Below are positions 47,325 through 58,496 of a DNA stretch of 64,000 nucleotides, one piece after another. The DNA comes from Maricaulis sp. (GTDB lineage: Bacteria > Pseudomonadota > Alphaproteobacteria > Caulobacterales > Maricaulaceae): positions 186,001 through 250,000 of the forward strand of contig NZ_JAEPNI010000001.1 in NCBI RefSeq assembly GCF_017643475.1. Direction: 5' to 3'. How positions within the stretch are numbered: position 1 is the stretch's first letter; the number at the start of each line of letters is the position of its first letter. The translations under genes were made by a program, and so were the position numbers. The notes beneath the pieces are model-generated. The model did not search any database and was not told where the DNA came from. It saw nothing but the letters and a program-made list of their open reading frames with translations.

Positions 47325-47338
47325 GTTTCACGTGAAAC
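47325..47338. promoter_or_regulatory. parS: parS centromere site (ParB binding)
   Basis: GTTTCACGTGAAAC, a perfect 14-bp palindrome equal to the core of the bacterial parS consensus. Only the outermost bases of the 16-mer differ. It lies 12 nt before hslV and about 9.8 kb from the predicted oriC, the range known in Caulobacter (about 8 kb). No second perfect copy was seen in the window. Confidence 0.85.
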
Positions 47339-47350
47339 GGAGCTGCCAGC

Positions 47351-47911
47351 ATGACCCAGGATTACGCAGACGCCTCTCAATGGCGCGGAACCACGATCTG
47401 CGCGGTTCGCAAGGGTGGTCGGCTGGTCATCGCCGGTGATGGCCAGGTCTCGATCGGGCCCACGGTCATGAAAGGCAATGCCAAAAAGGTCCGCCGCCTG
47501 GCGGGTGGTCGGGTTGTCGCCGGTTTCGCTGGCGCGACCGCCGATGCCTTCGCCCTGTTTGAACGCCTCGAAGCCAAGCTGGAACAACACCCGGCCCAGC
47601 TTGCCAGGGCCTGCGTAGAGCTGGCCAAGGATTGGCGCACGGATCGTTACATGCGGCGCCTTGAAGCGATGCTGATCGTCGCCGACGCCGACGCGACATT
47701 CCTGCTCACGGGTGCTGGTGATGTGCTGGAACCGGAAGACGGTGTTGTCGCAGTCGGATCCGGAGGCAATTACGCCCTCTCCGCGGCGCGCGCCCTGATG
47801 CATTATGAAGACGATCCGGAAGTCATCGCCCGCAAGGCCATGGCCATCGCATCGCGCATCTGCGTCTACACCAATGACAATCTGACGGTCGAGACGATCG
47901 AGGCCGGCTAG
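47351..47911 (+). CDS. hslV: ATP-dependent protease subunit HslV (ClpQ)
   Basis: Proteolytic core of the HslUV protease. 186 residues. The catalytic N-terminal Thr must be Thr14 or Thr15 in [14 protein letters not shown], so a propeptide of about 13-14 residues has to be removed. E. coli HslV only loses Met. Such short propeptides are common in Alphaproteobacteria. Other motifs: [37 protein letters not shown] and [14 protein letters not shown]. The partner hslU is 1.05 kb away, separated by two minus-strand genes. Its TAG overlaps the convergent gene in CTAG. Confidence 0.96.
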
Positions 47912-55602: not shown

Positions 55603-56192
55603 GTTTCGATCACTCCAAATTCACGCAAAGCTTCCAGCAACGGCAGCAGGGGTAGTCCCAGAATCGCGTAATAGTCGCCCTCGACCGTCTCGAACAATTG
55701 CGCGCCCAGGCCTTCATAGGCATAGGCGCCAACACTGGCTGTCAGGGCATCTCCGGCTTGTTCCAGATAGGTCTCGAGGAATGAGCCTGAAAACTCGCGG
55801 ACATGAATGGTCGATGTGCGTGATAGCGACCAGATCTCCTCACCATCCCGATGTAGAGAGAGACCAGAATGCAGATAATGAGGTTTGCCACGCATGCGTT
55901 TCAGCCGGTCGCGAGCCAGTGCAGCGTCCGGCAATTTGTCGAGCAGCTGACCTTCCAGTTCCATGGTCTGGTCAGCACCCAGAACAATCTCACCCGGCAA
56001 TCTGGCTGATACCTGGCGAGACTTGGCCCGGCCAAGCAGAAGCGCCATTTCCGCCGGGTTCAGATCCGCATGCTTTTCCTTGAGCTCCGTTTCGTCCACA
56101 TCCGATTTGTCGACCCGAAAAGGAATACAGGCCTGTTCAAGCACCAGCCGACGGATCTGACTTCCCGATGCCAGCACCAGGGAACTACTCAT
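55599..56192 (-). CDS. maf: Maf-family nucleoside triphosphate pyrophosphatase
   Basis: 197 residues from ATG 56192 (MSSSLVLASGSQIRRL). The frame extends further upstream inside the DUF299 gene. The Ser-x-x-Arg-Arg substrate loop (ASGSQIRR), ETELKEKHADLNP, VLGADQTMELEG, and the ending ILGLPLLPLLEALREFG are family features. The central DQT triad aligns with YceF/Maf house-cleaning enzymes that hydrolyse modified nucleotides. It overlaps the DUF299 gene by 8 nt. Confidence 0.9.
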   Translation of the reverse strand: MSSSLVLASGSQIRRLVLEQACIPFRVDKSDVDETELKEKHADLNPAEMALLLGRAKSRQVSARLPGEIVLGADQTMELEGQLLDKLPDAALARDRLKRMRGKPHYLHSGLSLHRDGEEIWSLSRTSTIHVREFSGSFLETYLEQAGDALTASVGAYAYEGLGAQLFETVEGDYYAILGLPLLPLLEALREFGVIET

Positions 56193-57027
56193 CTTTGGCT
56201 CTTTTCTCGTTGAGAAGATTAATGATTTTCGCCGCAGTTTCTTCAATCGAACGACGCGTTACATCAATCGAGGGCCAGCCATGTTTCGCATAAAGTCGCT
56301 TGGCGTGAAGGACTTCCTCGCGAACTGTGAAATCATCAATGTAATCCGTATCGCGATCCTCGTTCAGCGACAGAAGGCGATTACGACGGATTTGAACAAT
56401 ACGTTCCGGCGAAGCGGTCAGACCCACGATCAGGGGTTTTTTCAGACTGGCAAGATCGGTTGGAAGCGGCGCGGATTGTACCAGGGGAATGTTTGCCGCC
56501 CGGAAACCACGATGCGCCAGATAGATACTGGTCGGTGTCTTGGACGTCCGGCTGACACCCAGCAAAATAATGTCCGCGGCCTCGAAATTATCACCTTGTC
56601 CGTCATCATGGGACATAGCGTAATTCATGGCTTCAATCCGGTGATAATACTGCGCATCGAGAGATCGCTGTGCACCGGCGCGACTAGCAATAGGTCTTTG
56701 AAGATAGGAACTTAACGTCGCCAACATCGGATCGAGGACGGCAATCGCCGGAACACCGATTTCCATACACCGGGTCTCCAGTTCACGACGCAGGTCCGGA
56801 TTAACGATGGTGTACATGACAACACCGGGATAACCCGCAACTTCTTCAAGCACCCGGTCCAGCTGACGCGATGATCTGACCAGGGCATAGAGATGTTCAA
56901 GCGGATTGGTGTTTTCAAACTGGGCTACGGAAGCACGCATGACCTCCATCAGCGTTTCACCGGTCGAATCCGAGACCATGTGAATGTGAAAACAGGTATC
57001 GATGGGGGGCTGTTCGCTGTCCGTCAT
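56185..57027 (-). CDS. DUF299 kinase/pyrophosphorylase (regulator of PEP synthase or PPDK)
   Basis: 280 residues from ATG 57027. A GTG one codon earlier is also in frame. The family phosphorylates and dephosphorylates pyruvate,phosphate dikinase or PEP synthase. Signatures: HIHMVSDSTGETLMEVMRA, the phosphate-binding loop ILLGVSRTSKTPTSIYLAHRG, and LTASPERIVQIRRNRLL. It is the first gene to the left of the predicted origin, as in Caulobacter, and is transcribed away from it. Confidence 0.93.
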   Translation of the reverse strand: MTDSEQPPIDTCFHIHMVSDSTGETLMEVMRASVAQFENTNPLEHLYALVRSSRQLDRVLEEVAGYPGVVMYTIVNPDLRRELETRCMEIGVPAIAVLDPMLATLSSYLQRPIASRAGAQRSLDAQYYHRIEAMNYAMSHDDGQGDNFEAADIILLGVSRTSKTPTSIYLAHRGFRAANIPLVQSAPLPTDLASLKKPLIVGLTASPERIVQIRRNRLLSLNEDRDTDYIDDFTVREEVLHAKRLYAKHGWPSIDVTRRSIEETAAKIINLLNEKRAKDE

Positions 57028-57030
57028 CAC

Positions 57031-57425
57031 GCGCTCGATCTGTTAACGACTTGTTAATAACTTGGGCCGTTGTCCTCAATCCACCGATCGATGATTTTCG
57101 GCTGTGGGTAATACCCGGTCATACCCCGATAATTTCACAGATTTGTCCACAGTGATGCTGTGTGTTGATAAGCCTGTGAGTGAATTTTCCGGGGATAATA
57201 AGATCACAAGGTTTTACCGGTTTATCAACAACACTTTTGTCTACATGATGTTGTTATAAATAACCTAATTCCGTTTATACCGGATAAGATACTGACGAAA
57301 CTTAGGAGTTATCCAGCTGACAAATATGTCCTCAGCATGCGGATAAACGAGATACCCCCGACACTCACAGTACAACAACTACGACTCCCTAATTCTATTA
57401 TTAAAGGGGAAGTGAAAACGCCGCA
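57031..57425. other. oriC: Predicted chromosomal replication origin (oriC)
   Basis: About 400 bp without a gene, clearly more AT-rich than its surroundings, between the DUF299 gene and hemE, the position of oriC in Caulobacter. DnaA-box-like 9-mers differing at one base from TTATCCACA: 57103-57111 (minus), 57143-57151 (plus), 57163-57171 (minus), 57222-57230 (plus). Weaker ones (two mismatches) are at 57237-57245 and 57309-57317. A perfect CtrA site is at 57043-57057. A CcrM-type GACTC is at 57383-57387. The AT-rich stretch 57222-57300 is a likely unwinding element. Flanking genes diverge from it. Confidence 0.85.
57043..57057. promoter_or_regulatory. CtrA binding site in oriC
   Basis: TTAA-CGACTTG-TTAA, an exact match to the CtrA recognition TTAA-N7-TTAA. 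In Caulobacter CtrA represses initiation by binding such sites in the origin. Here it also lies 16 nt upstream of the DUF299 gene start. Confidence 0.65.
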
Positions 57426-57461
57426 TTGAACCTGTGGACGGAGCGTCCTAAAGCACTCGGT

Positions 57462-58496
57462 ATGACCGATGATGTTTCAAAACCGATCCTCAATGTCCTG
57501 AAAGGTGAGACGCTCTCACCACCTCCCATCTGGATGATGCGCCAGGCTGGCCGTTATTTGGCCGAATACCGGGAAGTTCGCTCCCGGGCGAAGGACTTCA
57601 TTGATTTCTGCTTCTCGCCGGATCTCGCATCAGAAGTGACGCTGCAGCCGATCCGCCGGTTTGGCTTTGATGCAGCGATTATGTTTGCAGACATTCTGCT
57701 TATACCGATCGCCCTGGGCCGACGGGTCTGGTTTGTCACCGGCGAAGGTCCCAAGCTGGACCCGTTCGATGTTGCCAATTTTCAGGAGCTGGCTGACAAA
57801 CGTGACGACAGCGTGCTTGCATCGATTGGTGAGACCCTTCGTCTGACCAAGGCGGATTTGCCACCGGAAACGACGCTGATCGGATTTGCCGGAGCGCCGT
57901 GGACGGTTGCGACCTATATGGTCGAGGGTGGTGGGTCCAAGGATCGTTTCAAAACACGCGTAGCCGCCTACGACAAGGCAGAAGCATTTGACGCGATGAT
58001 GGACATCATTGCCGACGCCACTGCGGATTATCTGGTCATGCAGGCCCATGCGGGTGCTGAAGTCCTGAAAATTTTCGACAGCTGGGCGGAAGGTCTTCCG
58101 GAGCCTTTGTTTGACCGGGTTATCATTCGTCCGACCAAACGAATTGTGGACCGGATCCGGGCGCAGGGCGTTGATCTTCCGATCATTGGCTTTCCGCGTG
58201 GCGCGGGAACGCTCTACCCGAAATATGCCCGCGAGACCGGCGTGACGGCGCTGGCCCTTGATACGGCGGTTGATCCGAAATGGATGGATGAAAACCTGCC
58301 AAAGGGCCTGCCGGTTCAGGGCCATCTCGATCCGGCGGTTCTGCGCACCGGTAGCGCGGTCCTGAAGGCCGAGGTGGATCGTCTTGTGGACGCCTGGTCT
58401 GACCGGCCCCATATCTTCAACCTTGGTCACGGGATCACACCTGACGTGCCTGTTGCCCATGTTGAACAATTGATCCGGTCGGTTCGCGACCGCTAA
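57462..58496 (+). CDS. hemE: Uroporphyrinogen decarboxylase
   Basis: Converts uroporphyrinogen III to coproporphyrinogen III in heme synthesis. 344 residues from ATG 57462 (MTDDVSKPILNVLKGE), where family similarity begins. A TTG at 57426 with AGGGGAAG upstream could extend it by 12 residues. Signatures: PPIWMMRQAGRYLAEYREVR, FGFDAAIMFADILLIPIALG, GFAGAPWTVATYMVEGGGSKD and HNLGHGITPDVPVAHV-like FNLGHGITPDVPVAHVEQL. It is the first gene right of oriC, followed by hemH (16 nt) and hemJ. Confidence 0.95.
   Translation: MTDDVSKPILNVLKGETLSPPPIWMMRQAGRYLAEYREVRSRAKDFIDFCFSPDLASEVTLQPIRRFGFDAAIMFADILLIPIALGRRVWFVTGEGPKLDPFDVANFQELADKRDDSVLASIGETLRLTKADLPPETTLIGFAGAPWTVATYMVEGGGSKDRFKTRVAAYDKAEAFDAMMDIIADATADYLVMQAHAGAEVLKIFDSWAEGLPEPLFDRVIIRPTKRIVDRIRAQGVDLPIIGFPRGAGTLYPKYARETGVTALALDTAVDPKWMDENLPKGLPVQGHLDPAVLRTGSAVLKAEVDRLVDAWSDRPHIFNLGHGITPDVPVAHVEQLIRSVRDR

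Follow-up and report, generated by a model that had tools for sequence, protein, structure and literature searches.

A chromosomal origin between hemE and the DUF299 gene of a Maricaulis species, with a predicted CtrA site overlapping a degenerate DnaA box

The intergenic gap and its sequence elements

The window, that is, the whole 64-kb stretch of DNA that was analysed, spans C7:186001-250000 of a 3,256,385-bp Maricaulis genome in nine contigs. Two genes, identified by profile matches, are transcribed divergently from the gap studied here: the DUF299/COG1806 (Kinase-PPPase) gene on the minus strand (56185-57030; PF03618, 298.7 bits) and hemE, encoding uroporphyrinogen decarboxylase (URO-D/HemE), on the plus strand (57462-58496; PF01208, 363.3 bits). 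The GC fraction of the gap is 0.42 versus 0.60 across the window, and the AT-rich, gene-free interval with genes diverging on both sides that had been noted in a preliminary description is present, both flanking families being matched. That description placed the gap at 57031-57425; its start holds and its end does not, since the TTG at 57426 is unconserved as a hemE start, while ATG 57462 aligns in the genus alignment with the hemE start of the relatives, so that the gap extends to 57461. A nearest-neighbour stability scan based on stacking values placed the least stable 50 nucleotides of the window at 57221-57270, inside the gap, and this segment is a candidate DNA unwinding element at which strand opening may begin. 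A structured RNA search gave no Rfam match at gathering scores in the window or in stretch L204 of the same genome. The single GANTC described earlier does occur in the gap, but with 72 occurrences in the 64 kb its frequency is about that of chance and it is absent in 9 of 19 genus members, on which grounds it was rejected as an origin feature.

Five DnaA boxes with one mismatch lie in the gap: TTACCCACA (57103-57111, minus strand), TTGTCCACA (57143-57151, plus strand), whose CCACA core does not vary across the genus alignment, TTATCAACA twice (57163-57171, minus strand; 57222-57230, plus strand) and TTATCCGCA (57338-57346, minus strand). Five further boxes carry two mismatches, and exact boxes are absent from the gap. 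When 57031-57425 was resampled under a first-order Markov model, a mean of 0.14 one-mismatch boxes was expected and none of 5000 resamplings reached five. Hence the cluster on both strands that the preliminary description reported is real, with five members instead of the four counted there, and its weaker boxes, put at two, also number five. No other place in the 464 kb read is as dense in such boxes at the 400-bp scale: the gap has 5 in 395 bp and the runner-up 2. Across the gaps of the 19 genus members, boxes with at most one mismatch number five in the window, four in G002, the window's nearest relative read, and zero to two in the other 17; common to the genus is the TCCACA core, which occurs 54 times in the 19 gaps against 6.2 expected. 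The segment 57103-57125, TGTGGGTAATACCCGGTCATACC, is well conserved in the genus alignment beyond its DnaA box, and we know of no protein that binds it.

At the DUF299 end, 12 bp from the start codon of that gene, lies TTAACGACTTGTTAA (57043-57057, plus strand), an exact TTAA-N7-TTAA and hence a predicted CtrA site. It is the only copy in the 64 kb, the preliminary description having noted one exact site in the gap, and a search of 57031-57425 for further CtrA sites gave none, even with one mismatch allowed. Its right half-site is overlapped on the minus strand by a degenerate DnaA box with two mismatches, TTATTAACA (57052-57060).

Evidence for the position of the origin

The gap 57031-57461 is the origin (oriC) of the Maricaulis chromosome. 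The earlier prediction to this effect is borne out by GC skew in the DNA sampled, parS, parB and synteny, together with the clustering of the boxes. Skew was sampled over 464 kb, window included, all on C7 and covering part of that contig. It is negative in 14 of 14 segments up to 242000 and positive in 14 of 14 from there to 1,460,000, so that the only sign change among the C7 segments read falls at the gap, where the preliminary description had proposed to look for it. Left of the origin the skew is uneven: 4-kb windows located between 30 and 38 kb and between 44 and 48 kb of the 64-kb stretch have weakly positive values, 0.003 to 0.017. In G015, a single-contig relative of 3,368,780 bp sampled at 20 stretches, the flip from negative to positive occurs between 3.14 and 3.31 Mb, with hemE at 3.256 Mb, and a second flip, from positive to negative, follows at roughly half a chromosome's distance, between 1.44 and 1.61 Mb.

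The segregation elements gather at the same place. The genome holds exactly three matches to GTTNCACGTGNAAC, all of which read GTTTCACGTGAAAC (parS) and lie at -9.9, +8.3 and +10.2 kb relative to the centre of the gap, that is, all within 10.3 kb; the reversed-pattern control gave no match genome-wide. The sole ParB_N match, at C7:255032, is 11.6 kb from the gap. One of the three parS sites, an exact match at 47325-47338, 9.9 kb from the origin, stands just upstream of a 186-aa open reading frame at 47351, which we take to resemble HslV. Synteny was followed in two sets, with genomes lacking a hemE match (2 of 61 in one search and 1 of 120 in another) left out of the counts. In the first set, where a few loci are duplicates, the divergent hemE/DUF299 arrangement was found at 118 of 139 hemE loci, while 21 gave no DUF299 match in the DNA examined; in the order-level set it was found in 132 of the 134 genomes. 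The two exceptions, G046 and G051, gave no DUF299 match in the stretch examined, which in G051 is cut by a contig end.

It would still be conceivable that replication starts elsewhere, at dnaA or at another array of boxes, and that the gap is a mere DnaA-regulated promoter region. Boxes with at most one mismatch show no overall enrichment in the genome (345, equal to the 345 of the reversed control), and outside the 464 kb read close pairs of TTATCMACA were found at C6:194200 and C7:816517. The second position belongs to an array of four DnaA boxes at C7:816332-816567 (L204:816-1051), two of them exact: CTATCCACA is followed by TTATCCACA, TTATCCACA and TTATCCACG, the last three at an exact spacing of 21 bp on one strand. 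No convincing gene occupies this stretch, which is 573 kb away from the origin. A better box cluster elsewhere, which the preliminary description had regarded as counting against its prediction, has in part been found, given two exact boxes there versus zero in the gap. As an origin, however, the array was rejected, because the sampled stretches that flank it share the same positive skew; it is a candidate DnaA titration or regulatory site. An origin at dnaA, which is located at C7:133 kb, the gap being at C7:243 kb, was likewise rejected, the gene having neither a box cluster nor a change of skew, which is negative around it. It is at the gap, and not at dnaA or at 816 kb, that the skew makes its one change of sign in the sampled C7 segments and that the three parS sites and the one ParB match cluster, which makes an origin elsewhere extremely improbable. 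A second DnaA-domain match (32.7 bits) was observed in a 310-aa open frame of a 15-kb contig (L002, C9:1202-4507).

The CtrA element in the genus, the genome and the order

An element TTWA-N7-TTAAYAA is placed toward the DUF299 end of the gap in every one of the 19 genus members read, a number that includes the window's genome. The exact TTAA-N7-TTAA is found only in the window and in G002, the other 17 having TTTA in the first half-site. Thus, of the single perfect site put forward in the preliminary description, the singleness stands, while the perfection is peculiar to the window's species and G002. The right half of the genus element overlaps, on the opposite strand, either TTATTAACA (14/19) or TTGTTAACA (5/19), with two or three mismatches to the DnaA box. 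The position of the element in the extracted gaps ranges from 13 to 92, partly since the DUF299 match starts at differing residues, and the overlap with the box is constant. TTAACGACTTGTTAA is, on sequence grounds, a credible CtrA site.

The spacing of the motif is favoured throughout the genome. Among 39 TTAA pairs at spacings 3 to 11, 14 have spacing 7 and 25 are distributed over the eight others (3.1 each), an excess with a Poisson P of 5e-6. The reversed control, AATT pairs, gave 16 at spacing 7 and 167 over all nine spacings; compared with 14 and 39 for TTAA, this indicates that the excess is in the spacing and not in the raw number. Outside the window there are 13 exact N7 sites, and ten neighbouring proteins were scanned at nine of them. 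Exact sites were found upstream of ftsZ (66 bp), fliX (49 bp) and a flagellin gene (170 bp), and FtsZ, FliX and flagellin are CtrA-linked; the remaining neighbours are TonB-like, PG-binding/Sel1, rhomboid and Mpo1-like proteins and three without a family. The ctrA gene itself is at C3:444066-444737, its product scoring 430 bits as CtrA against a cut-off of 350.

The survey was extended to 132 origin gaps from 37 genera and five families of the order, with genus and family labels partly assigned automatically; these gaps are not independent, and the counts denote presence across groups and not a number of events. Exact TTAA pairs occur 88 times at spacing 7, 21 times at spacing 6 and 1 to 7 times at each of the remaining spacings. 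One or more N7 sites are present in 67 of the 132 gaps, in 25 of the 37 genera and in all five families sampled, and in each of the five families spacing 7 outnumbers every other TTAA pair at the hemE/DUF299 origin when sites are counted. Spacing 6 appears in 18 of the 132 gaps and in 8 genera, mainly in family f4, where it is nearly as common as spacing 7 (11 sites in 10 gaps versus 14 sites in 9 gaps). A second, contig-based set, which overlaps the order-level set, has N7 sites in 29 of 59 gaps outside the genus (39 sites), with zero to two at each of the other spacings. Many of the N7-bearing gaps of this set come from organisms whose names we take to be Caulobacterales; N7 sites were found in none of 15 gaps with names that we take to be Sphingomonadales and in 4 of 8 with names that we take to be Rhizobiales (L049, L059, L098 and L109). 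The fuller element TTWA-N7-TTAAYAA was tried as a marker beyond Maricaulis and rejected, being present in 2 of 25 gaps from other genera of the family and in 0/19, 1/23, 2/22 and 3/24 gaps of the other four families. Four of these eight occurrences are near the DUF299 end (G025, G061, G043 and G126), too few to decide on common descent.

Proposed control of initiation by CtrA

The explanation that best accounts for the whole, and that we hold to be very probably correct, is that of an oriC whose CtrA site overlaps a DnaA box and whose initiation is gated by CtrA. In this model, DnaA would assemble on the cluster of weak and moderate boxes and open the AT-rich stretch around 57221-57270. In the swarmer cell, phosphorylated CtrA (CtrA~P) would occupy 57043-57057 and exclude DnaA from the overlapping degenerate box, lowering initiation, and replication would have to wait for the swarmer-to-stalked transition, when CtrA is removed. 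Gated initiation, as advanced in the preliminary description, gains support from the conservation in 19 of 19 genus members, the genome-wide N7 excess, the presence of ctrA and the other CtrA-type targets. For the window's species, CtrA binding, DnaA exclusion and cell-cycle timing are predictions that we infer from these sequence data.

Two other readings of the site were weighed against this model. If the gap is the origin but TTAA-N7-TTAA serves DUF299, as an operator or promoter element, and not replication, then the 12 bp that separate it from the start codon, its position toward the DUF299 end throughout the genus members read and the promoter location of the other CtrA-type sites of the genome would be readily understood. 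Nevertheless, the site is too near that start for a -35 element, unless the real start is downstream, so that only repression would fit; moreover, among relatives the distance to the gene is variable and the overlap with the DnaA-like box constant. The positions of exact sites also differ between families: in f2 they are central, at 0.44-0.61 of the gap length, and in f5 ten of eleven fall toward hemE, at 0.83-0.92, while f4 shows three groups of positions and the sites are widely scattered in f3 and in the non-Maricaulis genera of the window's family. Repression of DUF299 by the CtrA site is the main alternative to gating, and as the two are compatible both could hold; as a replacement for a role in replication we regard it as unlikely. 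More doubtful still is that the exact match arose by chance, as a TTAA pair in AT-rich DNA, in a species without CtrA control at its origin. A resampled gap of the same composition yields one exact site with P 0.018, and 17 of 19 genus members do without the exact match; but TTWA-N7-TTAAYAA is found in all 19, with a chance of 0.0015 per resampled gap, and spacing 7 is in excess both genome-wide here and in the origin gaps of the order, where no other spacing exceeds 21 pairs.

The anatomy attributed here to the gated origin may already have been tested in a congener, Maricaulis maris MCS10. Work by Shaheen, Ouimet and Marczynski, published in 2009 (Microbiology 155:1215), reportedly describes an origin whose single CtrA site overlaps a critical DnaA box, and in which CtrA-site mutations raised, and DnaA-box mutations lowered, the replication of origin plasmids. 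If so, the window presents the same single CtrA site over a DnaA box in the same genus. G015 likewise has the same flanking genes and, at the same end of the gap, TTTACCAATTGTTAATAA, although its first half-site is TTTA instead of TTAA and it has one one-mismatch DnaA box versus five. By its close resemblance to a relative's studied origin, the window's origin is therefore largely ordinary. With it, one more Maricaulis species has a well-supported origin, and the combination of one CtrA site with one overlapping DnaA-like box offers a simple natural example of the way in which replication could be gated by a developmental regulator.

The origin of Caulobacter crescentus, Cori, lies between hemE and COG1806/DUF299 as well (PMC1914354), and the CtrA motif of that species is given as TTAA-N7-TTAA (PMC4285127); location and motif are thus shared with the window. 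Five CtrA sites, one IHF site and weak DnaA boxes of the G and W types have been described in Cori (PMC4468827 and PMC1914354), whereas the window has one exact CtrA site, and its five one-mismatch boxes all differ from the Cori G-box TGATCCACA (PMC4285127). A looser IHF pattern, WATCAN5WTR, is given in PMC1914354. Steric exclusion of DnaA by CtrA is presented as the simplest mechanism at Cori, and lowering the CtrA affinity of all five sites is stated to perturb replication only mildly under laboratory conditions (both in PMC4468827), from which it follows that gating is a modulation even in Caulobacter. The strict IHF consensus, WATCAANNNNTTR, gave no match in the gap or in the 64-kb window; among the 19 genus gaps it is found in one (G010).

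Hyphomonas neptunium belongs to another family than Maricaulis. In this stalked budding bacterium a CtrA ChIP-seq peak is next to the origin (PMC7200025), comparable with the predicted CtrA site of the window, and this speaks for the gating model. Brucella abortus CtrA is reported as not binding the origin (PMC2877005), so that the presence of CtrA alone does not imply origin control. For Rickettsia and Wolbachia, origins flanked by hemE like that of the window, in Wolbachia with COG1253 in place of COG1806, were predicted from DnaA, CtrA and IHF sites, and the predicted CtrA sites range from zero to seven across the species treated in PMC1914354.

A 2015 review contains the statement that, apart from Caulobacter species, among them marine ones, and possibly Rickettsia, CtrA sites are not seen in origins, and that the use of CtrA by some marine Caulobacter origins probably evolved independently (PMC4468827). 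The distribution of N7 sites described above makes CtrA at the origin look broader than that passage states. We tentatively propose, at somewhat less than even confidence in the two ideas jointly, that the control of the origin by CtrA is ancient and common to the order Caulobacterales, with sites that move, and that the exact CtrA site and DnaA boxes nearer the E. coli consensus appear together in the window's lineage (one lineage, two genomes), as if the affinities of repressor and initiator had risen in step. If true, the former would replace the view of an independent gain of CtrA in marine and freshwater Caulobacter, or would reveal many convergences, and the survey of 132 gaps makes it testable whether CtrA at the origin is ancestral, with turnover, or has been repeatedly gained. 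A TTAA pair at spacing 6 is also present at C3:443964-443977, 88 bp upstream of the ctrA match, and is possibly a variant CtrA site.
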